Source: Pseudomonas prosekii
GTDB taxonomy: Bacteria; Pseudomonadota; Gammaproteobacteria; Pseudomonadales; Pseudomonadaceae
NCBI RefSeq assembly: GCF_900105155.1
Contig: NZ_LT629762.1
Location: forward strand, 5,031,501-5,095,500
DNA length: 64,000 nt
Reading direction: 5' to 3'
In this document: in pieces, positions 3,001 to 51,945 of the stretch
How the letters are laid out: each line of letters opens with the position of its first letter
Position numbering within the stretch: position 1 is the first letter of the stretch
Notes under the pieces: generated by a model
The model's database searches: none
What the model was told of the DNA's origin: nothing
Seen by the model: the letters and a program-made list of their open reading frames with translations, nothing else
Position numbers and translations under genes: made by a program

Positions 3001-6000
3001 CAGGTCAGCGCCGAGCGCTATCACCTGATCTACACCAGCCATCACATCCTGATGGACGGCTGGAGCAATTCGCAGTTGCTCGGCGATGTGCTGCAACGCT
3101 ACAACGGCAGCGCCCCGACACTTGGCGGCGGACGTTATCGCGACTACATCGAGTGGCTGTCGCGCCAGGATGCGCAGCTCAGCGAAGCGTTCTGGAAGGG
3201 CCAACTGGCCCACTTCGACGAGCCGACGTTCCTCGCCAAGTCCCTGCTGTGCAGCGCCAAGGATCAGCTCGGCCAAGGCGAGCATTTCCTCAACCTCGAC
3301 GCCGCGCGCACCGCCCGTCTCAATCAGTTTTCCAGAGCGCAAAAAGTCACCGCCAACACCTTGGTGCAAGCCGCCTGGCTGCTGTTGTTGCAGCGCTGCA
3401 CCGGGCAGGACACGGTGAGTTTCGGTGCCACGGTGTCCGGGCGTCCGGCGCAACTGAATGGCGTCGAGCAGCAGATCGGTCTGTTCATCAACACCTTGCC
3501 GGTGATCGCCAGCCCGCGTGCCGAGCAGCCGTTGCACCAGTGGTTGCAGCAAGTGCAGGCGCAGAACCTGTTGCTGCGCGAGCAGGAACATACGCCGCTG
3601 TTCGACATTCAGCGCTGGGCCGGGCAGGGCGGGGAAGCGCTGTTCGACAATATTCTGGTGTTCGAAAACTACCCGATTGCCGAAGCCTTGCAGCAGGGCG
3701 CAGCGCATGACCTGCGCTTCGGCGAAGTGACGAATGTCGAACAGACCAACTACCCACTGACGCTGTCGGTGATGCTCGGCGAGCAACTGTCGCTGCAGTT
3801 CAGTTACAACCGTCAGCAGTTCGATGGCGCGGTGATCGCGCAATTGGCGGCGTGCCTTGACCAATTGTTGCTGCAAATGGTCGAGGCCGGCGCCGAGCGT
3901 TGCCTCGGTGAATTGACCCTGGTGCCGGTGGCGCTGCGCGACGTGCTGGCGCAACCGGATGACGAGCATTGTGTGCAGCAGTTGTTCGAACAACAGGTGC
4001 AAAAGACCCCGGATGCGCTGGCGCTGATCTACAACGAGCAGCGTTTGAGCTACGCCGAACTCAACGGTCGGGCCAACCAATTGGCGCGGTTGCTGGTGCA
4101 GCACGGCGTCGGCCCGGATGTGCTGGTCGGGATCGCCGTCGAGCGTTCGCCGCAAATGATCGTCAGCCTGTTGGCGGTGCTCAAGGCGGGTGGCGCGTAC
4201 GTGCCGCTGGACCCGGAATACCCGGCCGAGCGCCTCGGGGCAATGATCGAGGACAGCGGGCTGCGTGTGTTGCTGACCCAAAGCCATTTGCAAGCCGCGC
4301 TGCCGACCACGCCAAACGTCACGCTGCTCAGCCTCGATCATCTGACGTTGCCGCAGCAGGACGACAATCTGCCGGTGCGTTGCCGTGCGCAGAACCTGGC
4401 CTACGTGATGTTCACTTCCGGCTCAACCGGCCGCCCGAAAGGCGTGGCGATCAATCACTCGGCGCTGTCCCGGCATACCCAAGTGACCGTGGGTTTCCAT
4501 GGTTTGAGCGCTGCGGATCGCGGTTTGCAGTTTGCCACGTTCAACTTCGATGCCTTCGTCGAACAGCTTTACCCGCCGCTGATCTGCGGCGCCTCGGTGG
4601 TGCTGCGCGGTCCGGAGATCTGGGACAGCGAAACCTGGCATCGTGAAGTGCTGGACAAACAGATCACCCTCAGCGACCTGACCACGGCTTACTGGAACAT
4701 GCTGGTCAAGGACTTCGCCGCCAGCGCGCCACGCGACTACGGCCGGTTGCGGCTGGTCAGTGTCGGCGGTGAAGCGATGCCGCCGGAAGGCGTCGCGACC
4801 TGGGCCAAGGCTGGCCTCGGGCACGTGCGCCTGCTCAATACCTACGGCCCGACCGAAGCGGCGGTGAGCGCCACGGAGCTCGATTGCACTGACTACGCAC
4901 TCGGCCAACGGCCGCTGCCGGCGACCATGCCGATCGGCCATGCGTTGCAGGGGCGCGGTTTGCACGTGCTGGACATGCATGGCCAACCGGCGCCGGTCGG
5001 TGTGGTCGGCGAACTGGTGATTGGCGGTGATTTGCTGGCGCGCGGCTATTTCAATCGTGCAGACCTCACCGCCGAGCGCTTCATTCCCGATCCGTTCGAC
5101 CCGCTCGGCGGTGGTCGTCTGTATCGCACCGGTGACCTGGCGCGGTATCGCCCCGACGGCTTGATCGACTACGCCGGACGGCTTGACCACCAAGTGAAGA
5201 TTCGCGGTTTCCGCATCGAACTCGGTGAAATCGAAACTCATCTGCTACAGGCGCCGTCGGTGCGTCAGGCGCTGGTGGTGGCGCAACCGGCGGCCATCGG
5301 TCAGCAACTGGTCGCCTACGTGGCGTTCGATGACCCGGCACTGGCCCGCGGCGATGCGACGTCGCAGGCGCTGCTGCGTGAAGATCTCAAGGCCCGTTTG
5401 CGCGCCAGCCTGCCGGATTACATGGTGCCGGCGCATGTGCTGCTGCTCGAAACCCTGCCGCTGAGCCCCAACGGCAAGATCGACCGCAAAGCGTTGCCGC
5501 GTGTCGATGCGACGGCGGCGTCCGGCGACTTTATCGCTCCGGTCGGCGTGCTGGAACAGCAGATCGCCACGGTCTGGCAAGAGGTCCTGGAACTGCAGCA
5601 GGTCGGGCGCAACGACCATTTCTTTGAGCTCGGCGGACATTCGTTGCTGGCGACCCAGGCAGTTTCGCGTCTGCGCAAACTCAGCGATTGCCCGTTGAAC
5701 CTGCGTGACCTGTTCAGCCACCCGCGCCTGCAAGATCTCGCGGCCTACATGCATGAACAACGGTTGTTCGAGCAAGGCTTGCCCGTCAGCGATGCAGCGC
5801 TGCTCAAAGCGCCGCTGCTCAAGGCGCATGGCAGTAAAACCAGCGCACCGCTGTCGCTGGTGCAGCGCCGCTTGTGGATCGCCGAGCAACTGTCCGGTGG
5901 CACGTCGGCGTATGGCATGCCGATGGCGTTGCGCCTGCGCGGCGAGCTGTCGGTCGAGCGACTGATCAGCAGCTTCGCTGAAGTCGTGCGTCGTCACGAA

Positions 6001-8292
6001 GTGCTCCGCACCGCGTACACCCAGGACGATGAAGGTGATCCGATTGCGCTGATTGCCGAACACGTCGAACTGGATTTCCCGGTGATCGACTTGTCCGCTC
6101 TTTCACGCAGCGCGCAGGAAGAACTGGTCGCGCAAGCGGCGCTGGAAAACGCCCGCACGCCGATTGATATGGAACATGCGCCGCTGTTGCGTGGGCGGAT
6201 CCTGCACCTGGGGCCGACCGAGCACGTGATGCTTTATGCGATGCACCACATCATTTCCGACGGCTGGTCGATGGGCCTGCTGGTCAACGAACTGGTGCAG
6301 ATTTACGACCGCAGCAAAGTCGCTGATTCGACGCCGTTGCCGCCGCTCGACGTGCAGTATTCCGACTTTGCGTTGTGGCAGCAGGCCCTCGAACAGGAAG
6401 GTGTGCTGGCGCGTCAGGCGGATTACTGGAAGACCCGGCTCGCCGGTTACAACGGTCAGTTATCGCTGCCAACGGACAACCCGCGCGGGCCGACGCCTTC
6501 TTATGAGGGCGATGCCGTGCAATTCCGCCTGAGCCCGGGCCTGAGCACGGCGCTGCGCCAGTTGTCGATGCAGCGCGGCGTGACCTTGTACAGCACGCTG
6601 CTGGCGTCGTTCCAGGTGTTGTTGCACCAGGTCAGTGGCGGCGCGGATGTGCTGGTCGGCGCTGACGTCGCCGGGCGTGAGCAAGCGGAACTGGAACGCC
6701 TGATCGGCTTCTTCGTCAACGTCCTGCCGCTGCGTTCGCGGTTCGATGCTGAAATGCCGTTCGCCAGATTCCTCGGCCAGACCCAGGAAACCCTGCTCAG
6801 CGCGCTTGAGCATCAGGACCTGCCATTCGACATGATCGTCGAGGCTTCGGGCGTGCCGCGCCACAAAGGCATGAACCCGCTGGTGCAGGTGTTGTTCGTG
6901 ATGAACAACCTGCCGGGAAGCACCCACGCCATGGGCGGTTTGAGCGTCGAATCGCTGCCGGCGCTGGAGACCCATTCTAAATTCGACATGGCCTTGTTCG
7001 TTGACGATGAAGAAGGGCAATTGCTGGGTAATTGGCAATTCGCCACAACCTTGTTCGGACACGAGCGCATTCAGCATCTGGTGCAGGCCTGGATAGCCCT
7101 GTTGGAACAGATCGTCGCTGATCAGGACATTCAATTGGGAGCTATCAGCATGCCAGTCGACAATTCAGCGGTGGCCGCCAAGCCAGCCGCGCCCGCACCT
7201 CAGGCTCCAGCACCGCAAGCCCCAGCACCGAAGGCCGACAAGCTCGGCAAGTTCTTGAAACGCGGTGCCGCCCCGGCAGCCAAGGCCCGGCCAGCGCCGG
7301 TGCGCGAATCGCTGATGGCCGCGCCGCAACCGTTCCCGTTGCTGCTGGAACCGAACGAGCCGCAGCTGGACTTGATCGAGTGGATCAACCACAACCGGGC
7401 GCTGATCGAAGCCAAACTGGCAACCCATGCCGGGATCCTGTTCCGCGGTTTCGAACTCGATGGCATTCAGGGTTTCGAGGCGTTTGCCGAAGCGATCCAG
7501 CCGGGGTTGTACGGCCAGTACGGCGATCTGCCGAAGAAGGAGGGCGGCAAGAACACCTACCGCTCCACGCCGTACCCGGAGCGCAAGATGATCCTGTTCC
7601 ACAACGAGAGCTCGCATCAGGACCGCTGGCCGCGCAAGCAAATGTTTTATTGCGAGCAGGCCGCGCCGGTCGGCGGGGCGACGCCGGTGGTGGATTGCCG
7701 CTTGATGTACGAAAAACTGCCGGCGGACCTGCGCGACAAGTTCGAGGAAAAAGGCCTGCTCTACGTGCGCACCTTCACTGACAACCTTGACGTGTCCTGG
7801 CAGCACTTCTTCAAGACCGAGGACCGCGCCGAAGTCGAAGCGCGGTGCCGCGCCGGTGGCATCGAATGGCGCTGGCTCGACAACAACGAACTGCAAACCC
7901 GCACGCCGGGCCCGGCGATCATTCGTCACCCGGTGACCGGCGCCAAGTCGTTCTTCAATCAGGTGCAACTGCATCACATCTATTGGCTGGAGCCGGATGT
8001 GCGCGAAGACCTGCTGTCGATGTTCGGCCTCGAGCGCATGCCGCGCCATGTGTTCTATGGCGACGGCACGCCGATTGAAGATGAAGTAATGCAACGCATC
8101 GGCGATCTGTACGAAGAGTGCGCGGTGCGTTTCGACTGGCAAAAGGGTGACGCCATCCTGCTCGACAACATGCTGGTGGCGCACGCCCGTGATCCGTTCG
8201 AAGGGCCGCGCAAGATCGTCGTGGCGATGGGCGATATGTTCGACCGCAGCGCCCTTGAACGCGCAATGAACACCGAGGAAACCGGAGCATGA
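1..8292 (+). CDS. Pyoverdine NRPS, 5'-truncated: A(Ser)-PCP-E-C-A(Lys-like)-PCP-C-TauD hydroxylase
   Basis: The reading frame is open from base 1, so the protein starts outside the window. Domains in order: partial A domain with pocket residues D-V-W-H-V-S-L-I-D, the serine code; PCP (GGDSI near 1075); E domain (HHLVVDG near 1627); C domain of DCL type (YPLSPMQQGMLFH near 2647, HHILMDG near 3040); A domain with pocket D-A-E-D-S-G-T-V-S, most like lysine codes; PCP (GGHSL near 5635); C domain of LCL type (SLVQRRLW near 5854, HHIISDGWS near 6244). An Ala/Pro-rich linker (7170-7315) leads to a SyrP/TauD-type Fe(II)/2-oxoglutarate dioxygenase. Its ligands are visible: His at 7600, Glu at 7606, distal His at 8182 and the 2-oxoglutarate Arg at 8209. 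The stop overlaps the next start (ATGA). Predicted product step: D-Ser then Lys, then hydroxylation of Asp held by the next protein. Substrate calls come from my manual alignment; Ser is firm, and Lys could be Dab or Orn. Confidence 0.95.
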   Translation, partial: DKVLQKTPFSFDVSVWEFFWPLLTGATLVVAAPGAHRDPAQLIELISAQQITTLHFVPSMLQVFVQDPAVTACTSLTRIVCSGEALQVDAQQQVFAKLPNAGLYNLYGPTEAAIDVTHWTCVDEGHDVVPIGQPIANVGTYILDAELAPLPVGVTGELYLGGEGLARGYHRRASLTAERFVTSPFGSGQRLYRTGDLARYRADGVIEYAGRIDHQVKIRGLRIELGEIEARLAEHDEVRETVVIAQDGTLLVAYVVPQRAALLSADDATRHAVQQQLKAHLSQSLPEYMVPQHWLWLEKMPVSPNGKLERKALPKADTSVSSHAYRAPSNATEHTLVEIWQSVLGRTPVGISDNFFELGGDSIISIQVVSRARQAGIHFSPKDLFLHQTVQSLAAVATLGEDALSIDQGPVTGDTPLLPFQQLFFERDLAEAHHWNQSVLLKAAAPLHAGHLQQALLALVTHHDALRLTFTRQGAAWVANHRSLAEQQRQPSLLWQADVADDAALQGLAEQAQRSLDLSQGPLLRAVLANLADGRQRLLLVIHHLVVDGVSWRILLEDLQLAYEQLHAGQALKLPAKTSATQAWARRLQAHADSAPMQAQLAFWTTQLQGARQDLPCDRPHGELHNRHAQQVQTRLDKDQTRKLLQEAPAAYRTQINDLLLTALARVIGDWTGDSSTLIQLEGHGREALFDEIDLSRSVGWFTSLFPVRLTAATEPGASIKAIKEQLRAIPDKGLGFGALRYLGNDASRQALKELPVPRITFNYLGQFDAAFGEESAALFTPASEACGTQQSPLAPLDNWLTLNGRVFAGELNIGWTFSEQMFDEATIERLAQAYARELERLIEHCCQSAHQGLTPSDFPLADLSQVQLDGLALNPSQVEDLYPLSPMQQGMLFHTLYEQQGGDYINQLCVDVDGLQVERFQQAWQAAMDAHDVLRSSFRWDGELQRPLQVIHKTLRVPFSVLDWRSRSDLPQALSALANAQRDQGFDLQAAPLLRLVLVQVSAERYHLIYTSHHILMDGWSNSQLLGDVLQRYNGSAPTLGGGRYRDYIEWLSRQDAQLSEAFWKGQLAHFDEPTFLAKSLLCSAKDQLGQGEHFLNLDAARTARLNQFSRAQKVTANTLVQAAWLLLLQRCTGQDTVSFGATVSGRPAQLNGVEQQIGLFINTLPVIASPRAEQPLHQWLQQVQAQNLLLREQEHTPLFDIQRWAGQGGEALFDNILVFENYPIAEALQQGAAHDLRFGEVTNVEQTNYPLTLSVMLGEQLSLQFSYNRQQFDGAVIAQLAACLDQLLLQMVEAGAERCLGELTLVPVALRDVLAQPDDEHCVQQLFEQQVQKTPDALALIYNEQRLSYAELNGRANQLARLLVQHGVGPDVLVGIAVERSPQMIVSLLAVLKAGGAYVPLDPEYPAERLGAMIEDSGLRVLLTQSHLQAALPTTPNVTLLSLDHLTLPQQDDNLPVRCRAQNLAYVMFTSGSTGRPKGVAINHSALSRHTQVTVGFHGLSAADRGLQFATFNFDAFVEQLYPPLICGASVVLRGPEIWDSETWHREVLDKQITLSDLTTAYWNMLVKDFAASAPRDYGRLRLVSVGGEAMPPEGVATWAKAGLGHVRLLNTYGPTEAAVSATELDCTDYALGQRPLPATMPIGHALQGRGLHVLDMHGQPAPVGVVGELVIGGDLLARGYFNRADLTAERFIPDPFDPLGGGRLYRTGDLARYRPDGLIDYAGRLDHQVKIRGFRIELGEIETHLLQAPSVRQALVVAQPAAIGQQLVAYVAFDDPALARGDATSQALLREDLKARLRASLPDYMVPAHVLLLETLPLSPNGKIDRKALPRVDATAASGDFIAPVGVLEQQIATVWQEVLELQQVGRNDHFFELGGHSLLATQAVSRLRKLSDCPLNLRDLFSHPRLQDLAAYMHEQRLFEQGLPVSDAALLKAPLLKAHGSKTSAPLSLVQRRLWIAEQLSGGTSAYGMPMALRLRGELSVERLISSFAEVVRRHEVLRTAYTQDDEGDPIALIAEHVELDFPVIDLSALSRSAQEELVAQAALENARTPIDMEHAPLLRGRILHLGPTEHVMLYAMHHIISDGWSMGLLVNELVQIYDRSKVADSTPLPPLDVQYSDFALWQQALEQEGVLARQADYWKTRLAGYNGQLSLPTDNPRGPTPSYEGDAVQFRLSPGLSTALRQLSMQRGVTLYSTLLASFQVLLHQVSGGADVLVGADVAGREQAELERLIGFFVNVLPLRSRFDAEMPFARFLGQTQETLLSALEHQDLPFDMIVEASGVPRHKGMNPLVQVLFVMNNLPGSTHAMGGLSVESLPALETHSKFDMALFVDDEEGQLLGNWQFATTLFGHERIQHLVQAWIALLEQIVADQDIQLGAISMPVDNSAVAAKPAAPAPQAPAPQAPAPKADKLGKFLKRGAAPAAKARPAPVRESLMAAPQPFPLLLEPNEPQLDLIEWINHNRALIEAKLATHAGILFRGFELDGIQGFEAFAEAIQPGLYGQYGDLPKKEGGKNTYRSTPYPERKMILFHNESSHQDRWPRKQMFYCEQAAPVGGATPVVDCRLMYEKLPADLRDKFEEKGLLYVRTFTDNLDVSWQHFFKTEDRAEVEARCRAGGIEWRWLDNNELQTRTPGPAIIRHPVTGAKSFFNQVQLHHIYWLEPDVREDLLSMFGLERMPRHVFYGDGTPIEDEVMQRIGDLYEECAVRFDWQKGDAILLDNMLVAHARDPFEGPRKIVVAMGDMFDRSALERAMNTEETGA

Positions 8293-11200
8293 ACGAGGTA
8301 TCGATGGACCAGCAGGATCTGGGTTACGCCTTGACCGCCGAGCAGCAGCTATTGATCGAACGGCTGCCGACGGCGCCGGTCTGCGCCGATGCGCTGCGGT
8401 TTCTGCAGGTCGACATTGTTGGAGCGCTCGATCCGCAGCGCCTGCAATCCGCCCTCGATAGCGTGCTGGCGCAGCAGCCGATGTTGCTCGCGCGGCTGGC
8501 GAAAGCGCCGGGTTTGCACGGTCTTCGGCAGTTCGCCGGGGCTGCCCAGCGGTTTCCGCTGACGGTGCAGATGCGGGTCGTGACGCCTGCAGAGATCCAG
8601 GCGCAGTTGGCTGAATGGGCAGAACGTTGTCATGTCGTCGGGGAATCCGAGGGCGCGCAGGCTGTGCTGTATCGCTTGGCCGATGAGCGCTGGCAATTGG
8701 TTGTCGGCCTGGCCCGCCACAGCTTCGATGACAGTGGCGTGCGCCTGCTTTATCAGCAATTGCTGCTGACATATGCGCAGGAGACGGCGCAGGACGACGA
8801 AGAAACCGGGGAATTCAGCCAGTATCTGGAATGGCGCAGCGAAGTCGTGCTCGACGAAGACGCCGCCGGCGCTCGCGTTTACTGGCAGGAGCATCTGCAA
8901 GGGGCGGACGTCGAGCTGAGCACACCGTGGCTGGCTTATCGCAACTCAGGCGCGGCGTTGCCATCGAGCACCGCGTTGCAGTCGATCAATCTTCTGCCGG
9001 CGTTGCGCGAGGGTTTACAGCAGTTGGCTGGTTCGTTGGGGCAATCGCTGGAGGTGCTGGTCCAAGGTGCCTGGTGGTTGCTGTTGGGCCGACTCAGTGG
9101 GCACGAGCAGATACTGGTCGGCGCGCGGCATGACAGTCGCGACGATTACGACTACTTCAGCGCTGCCGTGGGCGTGTTCGAGAAAACCCTGCCGCTGCAT
9201 TTGTCCTTGAACGCGCGCGCGCCGTTCAGCACGTGGCTGGCCGAGTTGGCCGCGCGGCTGGAAGAACACCGCACCTGGCAGGAATACTGGTCGGCGGAAC
9301 TGGCGCCGAGCGCGGCGCGCCCGGCTTATGGATTTACCCTGAGCCGGGCTGCGCAGGCGCAAACCGCTGCAGGGCTGCAGTGGTCGGCGCAGTCGCGTGC
9401 CGAGTCGGGCGAGGCGCTGTTCGAATTGCTGCTGGAGCTGCAAGCCAATTCGGCGGGCGGCCCGCAGGCGTTGCGCATTCACTACGCAGCGTCGCGCTAT
9501 TCGGCGCAGGCGATTGACGGGTTGATCGCACAATTGCACAGCGTGCTCGAAAGCATCGTCGCCAATGTTCACGGCGAAATCGCGAAGGTGCAGGTGTCGG
9601 GCGCCGCCGAGCAGCAACGTCTGCTGGGGCTCAACCCGCCCGCGCAAGCCTTGATCGATGGCCGCTACCTGCCGCAGCGCATTGCCGATTGGGCGCAGAC
9701 GACGCCGGACGCGATCGCCGTGACGGCCGCCGAACAACGCCTCAGTTATGCGCAGTTGCAGACCAACGTCGAAGCGCTGGCCCAGGCCCTGAAGGATCAG
9801 GGCCTGACGCCGGGCGCGGTGATTGCGCTGGCCTTGCCGCGGTCGACAGATCTGGTGGTGGCGATGCTCGCCGCTTGGCGCATCGGTGCCGCGTACCTGC
9901 CGCTGGATGCGCAGTGGCCGCTGGCGCGCCAAGCCCTGATGCTGGAACAGGCCGGCGCGGCGCTGCTGTTGGTCGCGGACGGGCAGATCGGCCAGTGGCA
10001 CGATCAGCCGCTGCCCGTGGCCACCGTGCAACGCGTGCTGCAATCGACATCGGCGCCGGGCTCGGCAGTCTCGGTCAGCGCGTTCGACACGCAGGCCAGC
10101 GATGCCGCCTACGTGGTGTTCACCTCCGGCTCCACCGGTGTGCCGAAAGGCGTGGTGATTGAGCATCAGCAGTTGCTCAACTACACCGCTCACGCCAGTC
10201 AGGCGTTGGGTTTGCCGCTGTGCAAGCAGTTCGGATTCACCTCCACCGTGGCCGCAGACCTCGGCAACACCGCGCTGTTCGGCGCCCTGTTCAACGGCGC
10301 GACGCTGCACGTGGCCAGCGACGAGCAGATGCAGGATGGCGGTTTGTTTGCCGAATTCGTCCAGCAACAGGCGATTGATTGCCTGAAAATCGTGCCGTCG
10401 CACCTTGCCGCGCTGCTCGCCAGCGAACGCGCGCAACTGCCGCACACGCTGATTCTCGGCGGCGAGCCGATTGCTCCGGCGCTGGTGCAACAGCTCGCCC
10501 GGTTGCGCAGCGATTGCCGGGTGTTCAACCACTACGGCCCGACCGAAGCCACGGTCGGCGTGCTGGTGCATCCGCTGCGTTTGGACGCCGATGCAGCGGA
10601 CTGCGGGATTCTTTCGCAGGTGCTGGGCAACAATAAAGTGTTCGTGCTCGACGACAACCTGCAACTGGCGCCGGTCGGTGTGCTCGGCGAGTTGTACCTG
10701 GGCGGCGCACAGTTGTGCCGTGGCTACGTGAATGCCGAGGCCGATGCGCAGGTGTTTATCCAGAGCCCGTTCAATCCTCAGGAGCGGCTGTACCGCACCG
10801 GTGACCTGGCGCGTTATCGCCCGGACCTGGCGATTCAACTGCACGGTCGCCGCGACCAGCAGATCAAGGTGCGCGGTTTCCGCATTGGACTGGCCGAGAT
10901 CGAAGCCGAGTTGCTGCGCCTGCCGCACGTTGCGCAGGCGCTGGTGCTGCCGGGTGAGAGCGCGCAAGCGGGGCTGCTCGCGTTTATCGTCGCTGCGCAA
11001 ACACCGGCGGCCGGGGCGCTTGAGGCTATCCGCGATGAACTGGCGCTGCGCTTGCCGAGCGTGATGCTGCCGCAGCATTTGCAGTTCATCGACAGTTTCC
11101 CGCGCTTGGCCAACGGCAAGATCGACCGCCGCGCGTTGCAGCAATTGGCCGCCATTCCGGCGAATGACGAAGGCCTGGCGCCGCGCGATGCACTGGAGCA

Positions 11201-11537
11201 ACTGCTGGCCACGCGCATGGCGCAATTGCTCGGGGTCGAGCGGCTGGGCATCGACCGCGACTTTTTCGCCGCCGGTGGCCATTCGTTGCTGGTGATCAAA
11301 CTGGTGGCGGGCATTCGCAAGTTGTTGCAGTGCGAAATCCAGCCGGGCGTGGTCTTCGATCATCCGACCGTGGCGGGCCTGGCAGCGGCGTTGCGCGCGC
11401 AGGAAAGCAGCCCCGGCCAACTGGAGAAAATCGCCCAGGCGCGGGTGCGTCTGGACAGCATGAGCCCTGAAGAAAAAGCCCTGCTCACCGAAAAAGCCCG
11501 GCAATTGCACAACGCCAAGGCTGCTTTAAACGGTTGA
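8289..11537 (+). CDS. Pyoverdine NRPS: interface-like C domain-A(Asp)-PCP
   Basis: A 1082-aa protein, translationally coupled to the preceding NRPS by a 4-bp overlap. Residues 15-430 form a condensation-type domain whose HHxxxDG motif has degenerated to RHSFDDS (143-149), so it is unlikely to condense. The A domain follows (FTSGSTGVPKG, YRTGDLARYR, NGKIDRRAL) with pocket D-L-T-K-I-G-H-V-G, the aspartate code. A PCP (FFAAGGHSLL) ends the protein, with a helical tail (SMSPEEKALL) and neither TE nor further C domain. A catalytically dead C-like domain next to an Asp A domain matches the 'interface' domain known to partner siderophore aspartyl beta-hydroxylases. That hydroxylase is fused to the upstream protein, so the two together make one split module for beta-hydroxy-Asp, an iron ligand. 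The Asp-loaded PCP must hand its chain to another protein, most likely the Thr-TE synthetase at 14960-19123. Confidence 0.95.
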   Translation: MNEVSMDQQDLGYALTAEQQLLIERLPTAPVCADALRFLQVDIVGALDPQRLQSALDSVLAQQPMLLARLAKAPGLHGLRQFAGAAQRFPLTVQMRVVTPAEIQAQLAEWAERCHVVGESEGAQAVLYRLADERWQLVVGLARHSFDDSGVRLLYQQLLLTYAQETAQDDEETGEFSQYLEWRSEVVLDEDAAGARVYWQEHLQGADVELSTPWLAYRNSGAALPSSTALQSINLLPALREGLQQLAGSLGQSLEVLVQGAWWLLLGRLSGHEQILVGARHDSRDDYDYFSAAVGVFEKTLPLHLSLNARAPFSTWLAELAARLEEHRTWQEYWSAELAPSAARPAYGFTLSRAAQAQTAAGLQWSAQSRAESGEALFELLLELQANSAGGPQALRIHYAASRYSAQAIDGLIAQLHSVLESIVANVHGEIAKVQVSGAAEQQRLLGLNPPAQALIDGRYLPQRIADWAQTTPDAIAVTAAEQRLSYAQLQTNVEALAQALKDQGLTPGAVIALALPRSTDLVVAMLAAWRIGAAYLPLDAQWPLARQALMLEQAGAALLLVADGQIGQWHDQPLPVATVQRVLQSTSAPGSAVSVSAFDTQASDAAYVVFTSGSTGVPKGVVIEHQQLLNYTAHASQALGLPLCKQFGFTSTVAADLGNTALFGALFNGATLHVASDEQMQDGGLFAEFVQQQAIDCLKIVPSHLAALLASERAQLPHTLILGGEPIAPALVQQLARLRSDCRVFNHYGPTEATVGVLVHPLRLDADAADCGILSQVLGNNKVFVLDDNLQLAPVGVLGELYLGGAQLCRGYVNAEADAQVFIQSPFNPQERLYRTGDLARYRPDLAIQLHGRRDQQIKVRGFRIGLAEIEAELLRLPHVAQALVLPGESAQAGLLAFIVAAQTPAAGALEAIRDELALRLPSVMLPQHLQFIDSFPRLANGKIDRRALQQLAAIPANDEGLAPRDALEQLLATRMAQLLGVERLGIDRDFFAAGGHSLLVIKLVAGIRKLLQCEIQPGVVFDHPTVAGLAAALRAQESSPGQLEKIAQARVRLDSMSPEEKALLTEKARQLHNAKAALNG

Positions 11538-11584: not shown

Positions 11585-11873
11585 TGAAAATTATTGTGAA
11601 TGATAAATAAACTCATTCCGGTTTTCCCCCGGTGCTGCGTCTTACTAACGTAAGCAGACAAATCGAACCGGGCAGGGTAGCCACAAGGTTCAGTTGCACC
11701 GACTGCAAAAAAACATTTTCCGCTGTCCGGACCAGCGATCGAGCCCGGGGAGGGGCCGGTCACGACTTGCCACGCACGCCTGCATGGGCCGCCGAGGCAA
11801 GCGGTTTTCAGGTCTGGCAGCGACAGGGTGCTCGGGCGCCCATGTCTTAACCACTTCAATAATAGAGAGCACG
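11585..11873 (+). promoter_or_regulatory. fpvA upstream region with a candidate ECF (FecI-type) promoter
   Basis: This 289-bp gap precedes fpvA. I found no TAAAT-N16-CGT box here, unlike the other pvd promoters. At 11616-11643 the sequence TTCCGGTTTTCCCC followed by GCGTCT resembles the -35/-10 layout of FecI-type ECF promoters, which would fit autoregulation of fpvA by FpvI. An AT-rich stretch at 11589-11612 (TGAATGATAA) has weak Fur-box similarity. Both readings are inference from motif shape. Confidence 0.4.
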
Positions 11874-14345
11874 ATGTCAGCAATTCACGAGTTCAAACCT
11901 CTGTTCAAGGCGTTGGTCATTGCCCGATCCCTGCGCTCGCGTCGTTCCATGGCCAGCCTCGGCCTGACGTGCCTGCTGCCACTCAGCGCACAGGTCTGTG
12001 CCGAAGAATTAAGTCTCAATATTCCTGCCCAGTCGTTGCCGCAGGCGCTGCAGGCATTTGGCGCGCAGACCAATCAACAGGTGATCTACAACGCCGACGA
12101 TATGGCCGGCCTGCGCAGTACACAGGTCAGCGGCAAGTTGAGCAGCGAAGCGGCGATCAGCCAGTTGCTCAGCGGCACGGGCGTCAACTACAGCTTTGAA
12201 GGCAACACGCTGATGCTGGTGCGCGGCACCTCGACTCAGGGCCTGGAACTGGGCGCCACGACCATCAGCGCGCAACAGGCCAGCGCCACCACTGAAGGTT
12301 CGAACTCGTACACCTCGAACGCCGTGACCATCGGCAAGGGCACCCACACCCTGCGGGAAATTCCGCAATCGGTAACGGTGATCACCCGCAAGCAACTGGA
12401 TGATCAGGGCATCGTCGATCTCAAGGACGCGGCCAACAAAACCACCGGTCTGGTCGGCGCGCAGGGCGTGGGCAGAGGCTTGGTCCTGTCGTCGCGCGGT
12501 TTCCAGATCGATGACTGGCAGTACGACGGTGTGCCGATCCCGCGTAACACCTACGCGCTGGGCAACTGGGCCACCCAGGACCTGATTTTCTTCGACCGCA
12601 TGGAAGTGCTGCGTGGCGCCTCGGGTCTGCTGCAAGGCACCGGCAGCCCCGGCGGCGCGGTCAACCTGGTGCGCAAACGCGGTCAGGCAGCACCCAAAGT
12701 GACCCTGACTGGCAAGGCCGGTTCGTGGGATCACTACGGTCTGCAACTGGACGCCGGCGGACCGCTGAACCAGGAAGGCACGATCCGCGGCCGCTTCGTC
12801 GCCGACCAGGACAACAGCCACTCGTTCGTTGATTCCGAATGGTACGAAACCACCTCGCTGTACGGCGCGCTGGACTTTGACCTGAGCGACGCCACCACAG
12901 TCGGCTTCGCGGTCAGCCAGTCCGACGGCGAATCGCGCTCCAATGTCCGCGGCTTCCCGCGTTATGCCGACGGCAAACCGATCGACCTGCCACGCAAGAC
13001 GTACACCGGCGCGAAGTGGAACCATTCGGACATCGATGTCACCACGCTTTACACCGATCTGGAACACCGCTTCAACGACGACTGGGCTTTCAAGGTCGGC
13101 GCCGTGCGCATGACGGAAACCAACAAGGCGAAAAACCAGCGCGTGCAAAACGGCATCAACGCCGATGGCACCGGGGTGCAATACGCGGACTTCCTGACAG
13201 ACCTGGACTCCACCAAAGTCGCTCTGGACATGAACGTCACCGGCAAGTTCGACGCCTGGTCGATGCAGCAGGAAGTGATGTTCGGCGGCAACTATTCGAA
13301 GGTGACGACCGATGACAAGTACGCGCGGACCTTCAACAACAGCTCCGACAATATCTTCGACATCAATCACGATCGTCCCGACATCAGCTACGAAGGTTTG
13401 ATCAACAGCCCGGGTGGCCGTGGCTTCCCGAGCGAATACGACATTCGCCAGAAAGGCCTGTATGGCAGCTGGCGAGTCAAACCGGTCGACGACCTGACGC
13501 TGGTTCTCGGTTCGCGGGTCAGCTGGTACGACTACAGCTACAAATCCTGGACCCAGACCACCACCGCCATCACCGAAGAACCTGAAAGCACCTCCACCGA
13601 ATCCGGTGAAGTCACGCCTTACGCCGGGATCATTTATGACCTGAGCCGCGAGTGGTCGGTCTACGCCAGCTACACCGACGTGTTTGTGCCGCAGACCGAA
13701 CGCACTACGGGCGGCTCGGTGGTCAAGCCGATTATCGGCAGCAACTATGAAGTGGGCATCAAAGGCGAGTTGATGGATGGCCGCATCAATACGTCCTTGG
13801 CGCTGTTCCGTTATGACCAGGAAAACCGTGCCGTTATCGACACGGCCGGCGAGCAGAGTTGTGACGGTTGGTATTGCTCGAATGCTTCGGGCAAGGTCCG
13901 CAGTCAGGGTCTGGATGCCGAGATCAGCGGTGAGGTGATCGACAATCTGCAACTGTTTGCCGGTTATACCTATAACACTACGAAGTATCTGGAAGACCCG
14001 GAGAACGAGGGCAAGATCTTTAGCTGGTGGACGCCGAAACATATGTTGCGGGTGTGGGGCAATTATCAGTTCACTGGCGATTGGAAGCAGGTCAGCACGG
14101 GTTTGGGCTTCACCGCTCAGACTCACACGGTGGGTTTCGATCATGCGGTGAATGTGCCGGGTTATGCGGTGTGGAATGCGCGGGTCGGTTATCAGTTGAC
14201 GCCGGAGATCGAGTTGGCGATGAATGCGAACAACTTGTTTGACAAGGGGTATTTCACGCCGGCTTACAATCAGATTAATGGCAACAATAATTATGGTGAT
14301 CCGCGTAATGTGATGTTCAGTGTGAAGTACACGCCTGAGTTCTGA
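11874..14345 (+). CDS. fpvA: TonB-dependent ferripyoverdine receptor with signalling domain
   Basis: An 823-aa outer-membrane receptor. The ATG at 11874 is chosen because it follows AGAG and starts a signal peptide (residues 1-43, ending near SAQVCAEE). An STN secretin/TonB signalling domain follows (LSLNIPAQSLPQALQAFG to about residue 120), then a plug (EIPQSVTVITRKQLDDQGI, and the typical MEVLRGASGLLQGTGSPGG) and a 22-strand barrel ending in the aromatic KYTPEF expected for outer-membrane insertion. It imports ferripyoverdine and, through the STN domain, signals to an anti-sigma factor controlling FpvI and PvdS. Position between the NRPS genes and pvdE matches P. aeruginosa fpvA. It should be specific for the peptide made by the flanking synthetases. 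Convergent with the Thr-TE synthetase. Confidence 0.95.
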   Translation: MSAIHEFKPLFKALVIARSLRSRRSMASLGLTCLLPLSAQVCAEELSLNIPAQSLPQALQAFGAQTNQQVIYNADDMAGLRSTQVSGKLSSEAAISQLLSGTGVNYSFEGNTLMLVRGTSTQGLELGATTISAQQASATTEGSNSYTSNAVTIGKGTHTLREIPQSVTVITRKQLDDQGIVDLKDAANKTTGLVGAQGVGRGLVLSSRGFQIDDWQYDGVPIPRNTYALGNWATQDLIFFDRMEVLRGASGLLQGTGSPGGAVNLVRKRGQAAPKVTLTGKAGSWDHYGLQLDAGGPLNQEGTIRGRFVADQDNSHSFVDSEWYETTSLYGALDFDLSDATTVGFAVSQSDGESRSNVRGFPRYADGKPIDLPRKTYTGAKWNHSDIDVTTLYTDLEHRFNDDWAFKVGAVRMTETNKAKNQRVQNGINADGTGVQYADFLTDLDSTKVALDMNVTGKFDAWSMQQEVMFGGNYSKVTTDDKYARTFNNSSDNIFDINHDRPDISYEGLINSPGGRGFPSEYDIRQKGLYGSWRVKPVDDLTLVLGSRVSWYDYSYKSWTQTTTAITEEPESTSTESGEVTPYAGIIYDLSREWSVYASYTDVFVPQTERTTGGSVVKPIIGSNYEVGIKGELMDGRINTSLALFRYDQENRAVIDTAGEQSCDGWYCSNASGKVRSQGLDAEISGEVIDNLQLFAGYTYNTTKYLEDPENEGKIFSWWTPKHMLRVWGNYQFTGDWKQVSTGLGFTAQTHTVGFDHAVNVPGYAVWNARVGYQLTPEIELAMNANNLFDKGYFTPAYNQINGNNNYGDPRNVMFSVKYTPEF

Positions 14346-14959: not shown

Positions 14960-17900
14960 CTACTGAGGAGGAGGGGGGTAGCGCTGGGTGCTCACGCTCG
15001 CGAGGAATGTTTCAATCACTGATTCGATCAGTGTGTCGTCGAAGATCATGCTGCGGTGCAGCAGCGGTGAGTGCATTGAGCAGTTGAGTGCGCCGGTGCG
15101 GCTGTAGCGTTTGATCAGGGTTTCGTTGAAGGCCAGTTCTTGCGCGGTTTTTTCCGGCGTGGCCCACCAGCAGCTGGGCTGGACGGTTACCGGTTTGAAG
15201 GTGAACGCTGCGAACGCTTCGACCAGGCGATCGTGTACCGCGAACGCCTGGGCATTCATGACTTCGTTTTTGATGTTTTGCACGGTCGCCAGCAAGTCGC
15301 CCTGGCCGGGTTCGACCAGCCCGGTTGCCCAGTCATAAAACCCTTTCACCGAACCTTGCGGCGAATCTCGCAGCCACGCCGCCGTGTGCTCGGTCAGCGT
15401 CGGGAACAGCAGGTCGAAGTAGTGAATGGCATCGCGGATTTCTTCCGAGGCTTCGCTGTGGCTCGCCTCGTCGAGTTGGCGCTGGCGCGGCAGGTCGGCG
15501 GGGTACAGGTGCTCTGGAACGGTGCTGTCGACCAAGCCTAAAAAAGCCACCTGATGGCCTAGGCCTTCGAGCGTGGCGGCGATGTCCAGCGCGATGGCGC
15601 CGCCCAATGACCAGCCCAGCAGGTGATAAGGGCCTTGCGGTTGGGCCTTGATGATTTCGCTGCTGTAATCGGCAATCATCTCGTCCCAGGTGTGCGTGTC
15701 GTTATGTTGCTCGCTGAACCCGCGATGTATCACGCCGCTCACCGCCGCATGCGCCTTGAGTTTTTTCGCCAACGGCTGGTAGCAAAACACGATGCCACCG
15801 CTCGGGTGCAAACAGAACAATGTGGGCGATCCGCTCGGCGCGCTGTTCAGTTCGACCACGCATTGGCTCTGATCGCGATGCTTGCGCGAAAGAAACGCCG
15901 CCAACTGCGCAATGCTCGGGTGCGCCAGCAGTTCTTGCAGGCGCAGGTCGATGTTCAATTGCGCTTTGAGTGTGGAAATGAACTGGATCGCCAGAATCGA
16001 GTGCCCGCCGAGTTCGAAGAAATTGTCGCTGATGCCCACCCGGTCAACCCCCAGCGCTTGTTGCCAGAGTTCCGCCAGCGCTTGCTCCAGCGGTGTTTGC
16101 GGCGCCACGTAAGCTTGCTGCCACAGACTGGCGTCGGGCGCCGGCAATTTACTACGGTCGAGTTTGCCGTTGGCATTCAGCGGGAAATCTTCGATGAACG
16201 ACAGATGCGCCGGCACCATGTAGTCCGGCAACTGTGATCGCAGCGCGGCGAGCAATTGCTCGCGCAGTTCGGCGGTCGGTGGTTCGCTGGCGATCACGTA
16301 GCCGACCAGTTGCTGCCCGCTCGGCCCTTCGTGTGTCAGCACCACGCAATCGCGCACCGCCGGCAAGCCTTGGAGGCGCGCCTGAATTTCCCCCAGCTCG
16401 ATGCGGAACCCGCGAATTTTTACCTGATGATCGATGCGCCCGGCGTATTCGATGCTGCCGTCGGCGCCATAGCGGGCGAGGTCGCCGGTGCGATACAACA
16501 GCCCGCCGGGCAACGCGTCGAATGGATCAGGAATGAAACGGCTGGCGCTCAGGCTCCGGCGGTTGAGGTAGCCGCGCGCCAGGCCGGCGCCGCCGACATA
16601 CAGCTCGCCGATACAACCTTTGGCCACCGGGTTTAGCTGCGGGTCGAGCACGTACCACGACAGGTCGACAATCGGCACGCCCAACGGGCTGGCCGCCGCA
16701 CAGTCGAGGTCGGCCAGCGACAGCGGCCGGTACGTCACGTGCACGGTGGTTTCGGTGATGCCGTACATATTGACCAACTGCGGTGCGTGATCGCCGAAGC
16801 GCTCGAACCACGGGCGCAGGCTTTGCACGTCGATCGCCTCGCCACCAAAAATCACGTAACGCAACTGTTGCTTCAGGCTCTGGCCCGGCGCGCAGGCAAT
16901 TTGCATCAATTGCTTGAACGCCGAAGGCGTCTGGTTCAGCACGCTGACTTTTTCTGCGCAGAGCAGCGCGTACATGTCTTGCGGCGAACGGCTGATCGCG
17001 TGCGGCACGATCACCAGTCGGCCACCGTGCAGCAGTGCGCCGAAGATTTCCCACACCGAGAAATCGAACGCGTAGGAATGAAACAGGCACCAGACGTCGC
17101 GGTGATTGAAAGCAAACCAGTCAGCCGTGGCGTCGAACAGACGCATCACGTTGTGGTGCGGCAGCAGCGCGCCCTTCGGTTTGCCGGTGGAGCCGGAGGT
17201 GTAAATCACATACGCGAGGTTGTCCGGGTGCACCGCAACGTCGGGATTGTGCTCGGCGCCAGTGGCCGTCGGCTCGAGGATCAGGCAGCGCACCTCGGGC
17301 GGCAGCGCCAGTTGTTCGCGCAGGTGCGCCTGGGTCAGGACCACCGTGATACCGCTGTCCTCAATCATGTAGGCCAGTCGCTCGGCCGGATACGCCGGGT
17401 CGAGTGGCACGTAAGCGCCGCCGGCCTTGAGGATCGCCAGCAGGCCGATGATCATCTGTGGCGTGCGTTCCGCCGCGATGCCCACCAGCACTTCCGGCCC
17501 GACCCCTGCGCCGATCAATTGATGAGCCAGGCGATTGGCCTGGCGATTGAGCTCGGCGTAACTCATGTGCTGTTCGCCAAACGTCAACGCGATGGCTTCA
17601 CCGGCACGGCTGGCCTGTGCCTCGATCGCCTGATGCAGACAGCGTTGGCGCGGCAGCCGGGTTGGCTGTGGATTCCATTCGGTGAGGGTCTGGCGGTGTT
17701 CGTGCGGGCTGAGCAACGGCAACTCGCCGACGCTGCGTTCAGGTGTCTGAATCATCGCTTGCAGCAGGTTCTGCCAATGCCCGGCGATGCGCTCGATGGT
17801 GGTGACCTGGTAGAGGTCGCGACTGAATTCCAGACTGGCCGTCAGGCCTTGCGCGGAGTATTCGACATCCAGTGACAGGTCGAATTTCGCCTGATTTTCC

Positions 17901-19123
17901 CCGGCATCAAGGAAGTCCAGCGTCAGCCCATCCCAAACCATCGGCGGCGCGTCCGCACCGCCTGTGCGCCAATTGAACAACACCTGGAACAGTGGATTTG
18001 CGCTGTGGTTGGTCGGCCTTTGTAACTGGTCGATCAGCAGTTCCAGCGGGTAATCGGCATGGTCCATCGCCGCCAGCGACTGGCCGCGCAGTGCCTGCAG
18101 GAAATCCACCGTGCGCTGGCACGGATCGAGGCGCACGCGGTACACCTGGCTGCTGACGAAAAACCCCACCAGCTCCTGGGTTTCGCCGCGATTGCGGTTG
18201 GCGTTGGGCACGCCGACGGTGAAGTCGTTCTGGTTGCTGTAGCGCGCCAGCAGCAATTGCCAGGCACCCAGCGCCAGCACAAATGGCGTCAATCCCTGAC
18301 GCTGGCAGAACGCGTTGAAGGCCTCGGCGAGAGCCGGTTCAAGCGTCCACTGCAAGCGTCCGGCCAAGTGCTGCTGACCGTCGGCGCGAGTCGCGTCCTG
18401 CGGCAATTCAAGCACCGGCAATTCACCGCCCAGGTACTCGCGCCAGTAATCGCCGCTGCGCGCGCAAGCGCTACTGTCGAGGTATTCGCCGCGCTGCCAG
18501 TGCGCGTGATCGGCGTACTGCAAGTGCAGCGGCGGCAACGGCGAATCATCACCCGCCCGCGCCTGAGCGTAGGCGCGCGACAAATCCTCCATCAGGATCG
18601 CGTTGGACCAGGCGTCCGAGACGATGTGGTGCATGTTCAGCAGCAACAGGTATTGCCCCGGCGCGGTGGTCAGCAACGTCGCCCGAATCAACGGCGCCTG
18701 GCGCAGATCGAAAGCCCGCGTCGCTTGATCCTGGATGCGCTGCGCCAGTGCTGCGGCGCGGGCCTGCTCGTCGAGGGTCGACAGGTCTTCGCGGTGCAGG
18801 GTCAGCCGCGCTTCACGCTCGACGATCTGTGTCGGCACGCCATCGAGTTCGGTGAAGGCGCTGCGCAGGATGTCGTGGCGGTCAATCACGCGATTCAGCG
18901 CCGCCTCTAGCGCATCGGCATGCAGCTCACCGCTCAGGCGCAAGGCGCGCGGCAAGTTGTACGCCGAACTGTGCGGCGCGCGTTGCTGCTCCAGCCACAA
19001 GCGCTGCTGGGCAAACGACAGCGGCGCTTGCTCCAGTCGGGTTGTGGTCGCCGGGGCGTGGACGGCGTCATCGGCCTCTGCCAGCAGCAGCGCCAGCAGA
19101 TCATCATCAAGAAGTTCGTTCAT
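14960..19123 (-). CDS. Terminal pyoverdine NRPS: C-A(Thr)-PCP-TE
   Basis: A 1387-aa single-module synthetase with thioesterase. C domain of LCL type (PLSFAQQRLWLEQQ; active site HHIVSDAWS, with Ala where Gly is usual). A domain at about 470-990 with pocket D-F-W-N-I-G-M-V-H, the threonine code, and core motifs YTSGSTGKPKG and YRTGDLARYG. PCP (FFELGGHSI). TE at about 1110-1387 with nucleophile motif GWSLGG (Ser1172). It begins 34 bp after pvdE on the same strand, so the two are probably co-transcribed. Neither plus-strand pyoverdine NRPS in the window has a TE, so this protein most likely adds the last residue, Thr, and releases or cyclises the peptide. P. aeruginosa PvdD likewise ends in Thr-TE, but there the gene is downstream of fpvA on the other side; its place behind pvdE is unusual. 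Confidence 0.95.
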   Translation of the reverse strand: MNELLDDDLLALLLAEADDAVHAPATTTRLEQAPLSFAQQRLWLEQQRAPHSSAYNLPRALRLSGELHADALEAALNRVIDRHDILRSAFTELDGVPTQIVEREARLTLHREDLSTLDEQARAAALAQRIQDQATRAFDLRQAPLIRATLLTTAPGQYLLLLNMHHIVSDAWSNAILMEDLSRAYAQARAGDDSPLPPLHLQYADHAHWQRGEYLDSSACARSGDYWREYLGGELPVLELPQDATRADGQQHLAGRLQWTLEPALAEAFNAFCQRQGLTPFVLALGAWQLLLARYSNQNDFTVGVPNANRNRGETQELVGFFVSSQVYRVRLDPCQRTVDFLQALRGQSLAAMDHADYPLELLIDQLQRPTNHSANPLFQVLFNWRTGGADAPPMVWDGLTLDFLDAGENQAKFDLSLDVEYSAQGLTASLEFSRDLYQVTTIERIAGHWQNLLQAMIQTPERSVGELPLLSPHEHRQTLTEWNPQPTRLPRQRCLHQAIEAQASRAGEAIALTFGEQHMSYAELNRQANRLAHQLIGAGVGPEVLVGIAAERTPQMIIGLLAILKAGGAYVPLDPAYPAERLAYMIEDSGITVVLTQAHLREQLALPPEVRCLILEPTATGAEHNPDVAVHPDNLAYVIYTSGSTGKPKGALLPHHNVMRLFDATADWFAFNHRDVWCLFHSYAFDFSVWEIFGALLHGGRLVIVPHAISRSPQDMYALLCAEKVSVLNQTPSAFKQLMQIACAPGQSLKQQLRYVIFGGEAIDVQSLRPWFERFGDHAPQLVNMYGITETTVHVTYRPLSLADLDCAAASPLGVPIVDLSWYVLDPQLNPVAKGCIGELYVGGAGLARGYLNRRSLSASRFIPDPFDALPGGLLYRTGDLARYGADGSIEYAGRIDHQVKIRGFRIELGEIQARLQGLPAVRDCVVLTHEGPSGQQLVGYVIASEPPTAELREQLLAALRSQLPDYMVPAHLSFIEDFPLNANGKLDRSKLPAPDASLWQQAYVAPQTPLEQALAELWQQALGVDRVGISDNFFELGGHSILAIQFISTLKAQLNIDLRLQELLAHPSIAQLAAFLSRKHRDQSQCVVELNSAPSGSPTLFCLHPSGGIVFCYQPLAKKLKAHAAVSGVIHRGFSEQHNDTHTWDEMIADYSSEIIKAQPQGPYHLLGWSLGGAIALDIAATLEGLGHQVAFLGLVDSTVPEHLYPADLPRQRQLDEASHSEASEEIRDAIHYFDLLFPTLTEHTAAWLRDSPQGSVKGFYDWATGLVEPGQGDLLATVQNIKNEVMNAQAFAVHDRLVEAFAAFTFKPVTVQPSCWWATPEKTAQELAFNETLIKRYSRTGALNCSMHSPLLHRSMIFDDTLIESVIETFLASVSTQRYPPPPQ

Positions 19124-51432: not shown

Positions 51433-51945
51433 TTTCTGATCATCCTTGAAGTCAAAACGTGGTGCGGCCACTCATTGGAAACTCGGCGTTCCTGTTCTCC
51501 TTGAACATGCCCGAATGCCCGAGTTGTATTTAAGCCATGGAACTGTGCAACGTCTGTAGCGGAATTCGGGGACAAACCTGCCATGAAAATCGCGTGGAGA
51601 AATTGACGCTTTCACCAGGAAACTCTTTCGAAGGCTGTTGGGAGGAACCTTGAAAATTAGTTAACTCTCTGAAAAGGAAGGCATTTCAATAGCAGAGACT
51701 GACCACCAGTCCCTGCACAATCTGTAGCCGATCTCCTACACACTTTTCAGCTTTCCCTGTCCGCCCGATTGATCAACCAAGGCTCTGCGTCGGGCGTCTG
51801 GCGTTGTCCGGGTTTCCGGTGACAGACACCCGTCAGAGCCGGTGCTTGAATACGGAAAAAACCTGTACAGGGCCGTGCGCCCGACACCGTCATGCCAAGA
51901 CCGGGTTTGACTGCGCGCATCGACACCTCCCATGAGACGGACCTT
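51433..51945. promoter_or_regulatory. Divergent luxR-NRPS intergenic region
   Basis: About 510 bp with no supported gene. A 10-bp palindrome CCTGTACAGG at 51862-51871 lies 74 bp before the NRPS start and could be part of a LuxR-type operator. AT-rich stretches at 51650-51690 could hold promoters. Neither is firm. Confidence 0.35.

Follow-up and report, generated by a model that had tools for sequence, protein, structure and literature searches.

The window analysed here is a 64,000-nt stretch of the Pseudomonas prosekii genome (contig NZ_LT629762.1, positions 5,031,501 to 5,095,500), in which one nonribosomal peptide synthetase (NRPS), protein 1, ends in an aspartyl beta-hydroxylase domain and is followed by a second NRPS, protein 2, with an aspartate module. 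Positions refer to the window, and features are on the plus strand unless otherwise stated. Protein 1 is a 4531-aa NRPS (open frame at genome positions 5026197-5039789), the N-terminal part of which lies upstream of the window. With condensation (C), adenylation (A), thiolation (T) and epimerization (E) domains its order is C-A-T / C-A-T-E / C-A-T / C-TauD, TauD being the last domain. In the window part, Pfam recognises Condensation (residues 1947-2387) and TauD (residues 2455-2742, E 1.2e-47), joined by a Pro/Ala-rich linker, which agrees with the C-linker-TauD terminus proposed in the first-pass annotation. The terminal C domain (5839..7161, PF00668) is catalytic, with HHIISDG at 6244-6264. 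The TauD-type Fe(II)/2-oxoglutarate aspartyl beta-hydroxylase domain (7363..8226, PF02668) carries H-x-E at 7600-7608 and the distal H at 8182-8184. The residues H589, E591 and H783 of this domain, which we take to be the metal ligands, are unvaried across 48 sequences and make up the non-heme iron triad H-x-E...H.

Protein 2 (8289..11537, 1082 aa) has the layout interface - A(Asp) - T, and its ATG at 8289 forms an ATGA overlap with the stop of protein 1. The interface domain (8412..9626) is C-like and reaches only 96 bits against Pfam Condensation; as had been noted in the first pass, it carries RHSFDDS (8715-8735) where HHxxxDG is expected, and HDSRDDY is found at 9129-9149. It is followed by an A domain (9687..10727) with the code DLTKIGHVG, in agreement with the Asp row of a published code table (PMC3207962), and by a T domain (11202..11393, PF00550), the expected carrier of the Asp to be hydroxylated.

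To place the locus we compared it with relatives, of which at least 566 were confirmed and the best 80 were kept as named loci; 133 loci were clustered at 85% TauD identity into 42 clusters. Within the genus, 146 of 298 Pseudomonas genomes gave a match, either fused or stand-alone, at E 1e-60, and 52 fused relatives were selected from such matches. The hydroxylase is fused at the protein end in 77 of the 80 named loci, the exceptions being L156 and L158, which have separate hydroxylase genes, and L124, which has no upstream C domain in frame. An interface-like match was found in the next open reading frame (ORF) at all 80 named loci, and the next gene encodes interface-A(Asp-like) in 52/52 of the selected fused relatives. 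Among the partners of the 133 loci, 131 have the A code D[LI]TK[VI]GH[VI]G and the remaining two are truncated, while HHxxxDG occurs in none. Unsplit TauD-interface proteins were not seen at any of the 80 named loci or in six long NRPS (open frames, 9426-9797 aa), and TauD is the last domain in all 120 fused homologues among the matches listed (531 were found). The six long NRPS (L221-L226), which by their likeness to Cupriavidus loci probably belong to Burkholderiaceae, have TauD at the end and linkers with the motif-like KLEKL or KLRSL.

Phylogenetic analysis supports the assignment to the interface-associated siderophore aspartyl beta-hydroxylases (IβHAsp). A tree was computed from 18 interface domains (50 were aligned), 13 terminal C domains (out of 48) and 12 further C or E domains. 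In it the C-like domain forms one branch with the 17 other partner C-like domains (support 100 in the Shimodaira-Hasegawa-like approximate likelihood ratio test, SH-aLRT). Both the 12 further domains and the 13 terminal C domains, which make up a group of their own (SH-aLRT 99), lie outside this branch; the clustering with active C domains that the first-pass annotation had named as a refutation was not observed. With two profile models, each built on part of the set, all 81 scored partners outside the interface training set were closer to the interface profile than to that of the terminal C domains. The TauD domain groups with the fused enzymes, and a branch with SH-aLRT 100 parts them from 8 TβH-like enzymes that stand alone; the reference rows were assigned to classes by architecture and identity rather than from characterised proteins, SyrP (P0356) excepted. 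The first-pass annotation had proposed an IβHAsp/interface pair, which the trees and the Asp code bear out; it had also regarded the covalent tether as a departure from IβHAsp, and here the fusion in 77 of the 80 named relatives speaks the other way. Likewise, it does appear that the hydroxylase must act on the T domain of another polypeptide, as had been suggested, but this is no special case, being the same for every fused relative examined. From its sequence, the locus is thus best described as an IβHAsp module of familiar architecture.

With TauD fused at the C-terminus, a dead C-like interface domain opening the next NRPS and an Asp A domain, the locus does not differ in architecture from IβHAsp. 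Reitz et al. 2019 reportedly gave a wider definition of IβHAsp, with an interface domain. A fused C-terminal hydroxylase followed by a C-A(Asp) protein is described in the accessible parts of PMC7100376, and hence the tether is ordinary and was ruled out as a novelty. According to the portions available of PMC12230676, antiSMASH 8 provides profiles both for this type of hydroxylase and for the interface domains. The closest published layout is that of potashchelin, where PtcB has C-TauD at the protein end and the next NRPS continues with C - A(Asp) - PCP, giving an L-threo product; potashchelin is however a lipopeptide siderophore with the modified Asp as first residue, while here it would come late in what is probably a pyoverdine (PMC7100376, as far as accessible). 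By analogy with the family, the product residue is predicted to be L-threo (2S,3S) OH-Asp. The TβHAsp enzymes, such as MobD, are likewise of the TauD family and make siderophore OH-Asp, but they are stand-alone with an L-erythro (3R) product (accessible text of PMC10391617 and PMC7100376). At three of the four TβH-like loci read here the Asp module was visible and has an ordinary C domain, whereas the present enzyme is fused and has an interface domain as partner. P. putida GB-1 has a separate SyrP-like gene, PputGB1_4087 (PMC4019867, in the part available), which we read as being of the TβHAsp class. The SyrP-type enzymes (SBH) fall inside the fused clade of our TauD tree, as is also stated in the available part of PMC12971057; they differ in being stand-alone, and the SyrP-like rows examined are without the linker motif described below.

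While the architecture is ordinary, the stretch between the C domain and TauD holds what we regard as new, namely a likely internal start and a plausible docking motif. Where the C domain ends, the gene reads TTGGGAGCTATCAGC-ATG, with the ATG (7150..7152) coding for residue 2384 in that part of protein 1 which lies in the window and a Shine-Dalgarno-like (SD) GGGAG (7137..7141) 8 nt upstream of it. Initiation at this ATG would give a predicted free hydroxylase of 380 aa plus stop (7150..8292), in frame with protein 1. The proposal is based on the SD, on the openness of the RNA and on codon use, and each of these could be followed through the relatives.

A linker ATG could be ranked in 71 of the 80 named loci, and taking the best of several ATGs per linker the median SD-strength rank was 0.03 among the other in-frame ATGs, with a rank of 0.1 or below in 48 of the 71. 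Over the 42 clusters, a strong SD was found at 26/69 linker ATGs compared to 109/1307 other in-frame ATGs (p 1e-10), and a strong SD-ATG in 25/42 C-TauD linkers compared to 3/33 C-A linkers (p 5e-6). The same mark was reached by 25/38 internal sites and, where the best start candidate near the stop was taken for the downstream gene, by 24/29 of these starts. The RNA around the sites is also less folded, with -13.0 kcal/mol compared to -24.2 at other ATGs. When the same residues were recoded synonymously for comparison, the sites had a z of +1.45 (34/38 positive) and 252 control ATGs one of -0.33 (p 3e-15). This signal peaks at the start: z rises from 0.09 at -36 codons through 0.35 at -24 and 0.76 at -12 to 1.44 at the ATG, and then falls from 1.16 at +12 to 0.19 at +24 and -0.05 at +36, while the C-A linkers of the same genes have z from -0.23 to -0.53.

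The codon use points in the same direction. The SD codon is purine-rich at all 54 loci that have the amino-acid pattern of the site, which represent 6 clusters with 22 distinct codon strings. Where it encodes Gly it is always GGA/GGG (46/46; ORF rate 0.20), where it encodes Arg always AGA/AGG (8/8; ORF rate 0.045), and the Leu before it is CTA/TTA in 15/50 (ORF rate 0.015). In the rows shown where Met is replaced by Val the codon is GTG. The Met is mostly found in two places of the alignment, column 439 and columns 447-448, and therefore it seems that the start rather than the residue is kept. The two Pseudoalteromonas loci with separate hydroxylase genes (L156 and L158) have SD and ATG in the corresponding place. 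Two held-out clusters also had an ATG site, L208 (SD -5.8, z 3.08) and L221 (SD -6.4, z 1.12). In the window no internal sigma-70 promoter was found within 6700-8400.

Several results weigh against internal initiation. When codons were resampled over the whole linker and any start codon was allowed, no SD excess was detected (2/130 loci with p<=0.05); we think that this test is diluted by the many candidate starts and by G-U pairing, yet it remains a negative. A site-specific SD test gave only a mild shift, with a median p of 0.47 compared to 0.74 for controls, and p <=0.1 in 3/38 sites and 5/252 controls. Not all fused genes have the site: 12/41 clusters labelled as fused (for instance L058, L062 and L157) lack one at dG -5.35 or better, a label that includes one TTG site, and 17/42 lack one at -6.35 with ATG only. 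In each linker the ATG with the strongest SD was taken as the site, a choice that favours the SD tests, and the codon counts of the 54 loci rest on 6 clusters and not on 54 independent cases. Of the four held-out clusters tried, L220 had a GTG site without a structure signal and L226 had none. Finally, synonymous conservation upstream of the start is clear in the own clade only, where a block of about 60 codons (6970..7149) shows almost no synonymous variation among 28 sequences (pairwise codon identity 0.90-0.99, mean 0.707), its last part having a GC content of about 0.51-0.53 against about 0.6 around it. In the 20 codons 5' of the start the identity is raised in Halomonas (0.86 vs 0.71, rank 68 of 661, 4 sequences), and of four other groups two were not raised and two could not be scored. 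The block in the own clade is longer than a ribosome-binding site needs.

Balancing these points, we consider it likely that ribosomes also initiate at the ATG at 7150 and produce a free hydroxylase. Internal starts in such hydroxylase genes were not found among the papers listed by our literature searches. A similar arrangement exists for SpaO/HrcQ, where one gene gives the full-length protein and a shorter C-terminal product by internal initiation, though in an unrelated family that belongs to type III secretion (PMC12132427 and PMC8553256, in the parts available).

Downstream of the proposed start, the linker contains KADKLGKFLKR (7231..7263), a proposed docking motif with the consensus K-x-D-K-L-x-K-[F/L]. 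In 48 aligned C-linker-TauD sequences its positions are occupied by K in 46, D in 35, K in 43, L in 48, K in 37 and F/L in 38, while the rest of the linker is variable. The strict motif was found in 82/133 linkers and in none of 200 shuffles per linker; a loose version was found in 127/133 linkers, but also in 21% of shuffled ones. A further loose pattern, used without a shuffle control, matched 40/40 fused loci fetched later. Among the fused homologues listed (120 of the 531 found), a regular expression picks out the motif in 108, and in the remaining 12 it was recognised by eye. In an AlphaFold model of C-linker-TauD both domains are confident and their mutual placement is not (predicted TM-score 0.58). 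The linker residues 444-486, which bear the motif, have a predicted local distance difference test score <50, and therefore packing of the motif on its own chain is not predicted. The motif is absent from the literature reached, with searches that were not aimed at its letters, and the founding 2019 paper may mention it. Neither the motif nor the internal start is mentioned in the accessible parts of PMC12971057 and PMC12230676, and beyond PMC10212144, available in part, we found no literature on a hydroxylase with a linker and a docking domain. Tandem KL motifs were seen in the linkers of L119 (as KMDKLGKLDKLGKLAK), L131 and L155. Before the motif, the window strain carries an additional Pro-Ala-Gln repeat (7192-7218), and eight of the alignment columns of this repeat (454-461) are filled in this strain alone among the 48 sequences.

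Taken together, we suggest the following course of events. The A domain of protein 2 would load L-Asp onto its own T domain, and the catalytically dead interface domain would hold the TauD domain from the terminus of protein 1. TauD would then hydroxylate the T-bound Asp at the beta carbon to L-threo-OH-Asp, as expected from the family, and the terminal C domain of protein 1 would join the growing peptide to it. With ribosomes starting at 7150 as well, the gene would supply both the fused enzyme and the free 380-aa hydroxylase, and it is plausible that KADKLGKFLKR, which is present in both forms, docks either of them on protein 2. We hold this combined reading, an IβHAsp module with an internal start and a docking motif, to be quite probable from the sequences compared. 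The start and the motif belong to the family at large rather than being peculiar to one genome. We lean towards the wider proposition that in Proteobacteria at large the fused IβHAsp genes yield two products each, by way of a conserved ribosome-binding site inside the linker, and that the motif shared by these products is a new docking peptide bringing the hydroxylase and the last C domain to the interface protein. If the internal start works, this fused NRPS domain would be a free enzyme too, and in-trans hydroxylation would have to be redrawn, retested and re-engineered. The motif might serve as a short, swappable handle for steering a hydroxylase to a module of choice, and whether the interface domain binds this peptide offers a way of testing the role proposed for that domain.

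The partner of the motif might be another one, and binding to a membrane or to some protein other than the interface protein is a possibility to which we give a minor share of belief. An assembly of pyoverdine enzymes at the inner membrane has been reported, and the motif is short, basic and amphipathic, docking on the interface domain being our own deduction. Against this, the motif was not found in the SyrP-like and TβH-like stand-alone enzymes examined, and around these genes (2 SyrP-like with 96 kb each and 4 TβH-like with 20 kb each) no interface profile was the best match above 94 bits, while 131 scored partners reach at least 249 bits. The Asp module itself lay within the stretches read for the TβH-like genes just mentioned (3/4), and no Asp-code module was found inside those of the 2 SyrP-like genes. 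Further, in the two Pseudoalteromonas with a separate hydroxylase, motif-like sequences are found both at the terminus of the upstream NRPS (NKFKSTKFAKLKK or QSKFKSSKFAKFKK) and at the beginning of the hydroxylase (RKGKFSSLKKG). We take this to reflect docking on a partner that the two would share.

With regard to the start site, it might instead load fresh ribosomes late in a 13.6-kb gene in order to drive the overlapping protein 2, with the short product idle. Protein 2 does begin at an ATGA overlap, and internal initiation would be expected to increase the ribosome flow into it, but this leaves unexplained that a motif match follows 3 to 27 residues downstream of the start in 35/38 sites. 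We consider such coupling improbable as the whole explanation, and it can act together with the production of a free hydroxylase. It is also improbable, in our view, that SD and ATG are scars left from a once separate hydroxylase gene after loss of the upstream stop, with the free enzyme now irrelevant. Separate genes do occur (L156 and L158), and the 12/41 fused clusters without a strong site would fit such decay. However, the SD, the start and the open RNA persist in otherwise variable linkers across clusters less than 85% identical in TauD, and therefore they are hardly a relic, which should have decayed; in addition, rare codons preserve the SD through amino-acid changes (GGA to AGG, and in the rows shown also Met to Val, encoded by GTG). 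That an SD-like sequence with unstructured RNA merely pauses or eases the ribosome during folding would suit a site at a domain boundary, but it is very unlikely, as the C-A boundaries of the same genes show neither feature (SD-ATG in 3/33, negative z) and a pause has no need of a start codon. Production of a free hydroxylase from the internal start is thus the reading we prefer.

The interface domain is the fastest-changing part of the module. In the own clade its median identity is 55%, compared to 94% for TauD, 89% for T, 80% for the terminal C and 72% for A, and in the next clade it is 39% compared to 78% for TauD. Independent swapping of interface and hydroxylase was considered and rejected: the interface has the lowest identity of the module domains in both clades compared, and therefore fast divergence suffices.

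The assembly line is most likely that of a pyoverdine, judged from its layout. Protein 2 is followed by a TonB receptor gene (11694-14345), and beside this, on the opposite strand, lies a gene for a C-A-T-TE protein (TE, thioesterase; 14960-19123) with a Thr-like code, the A domain of which shows a mosaic pattern with 43-83% identity inside the clade. In gene order the A codes are DVWHVSLID, DGEACGGVT, DLWNNALTY, DILQFGLIW, DVWHVSLID, DAEDSGTVS, DLTKIGHVG and DFWNIGMVH. From code tables, DLWNNALTY is presumably Ala-like and DILQFGLIW presumably Gly, and we take DGEACGGVT and DAEDSGTVS to be without a clear substrate. The table in PMC3207962 suggests Ser for both copies of DVWHVSLID, Asp for DLTKIGHVG and Thr for DFWNIGMVH. 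A second, separate NRPS gene set begins at 51892 and continues beyond the window end (64000).

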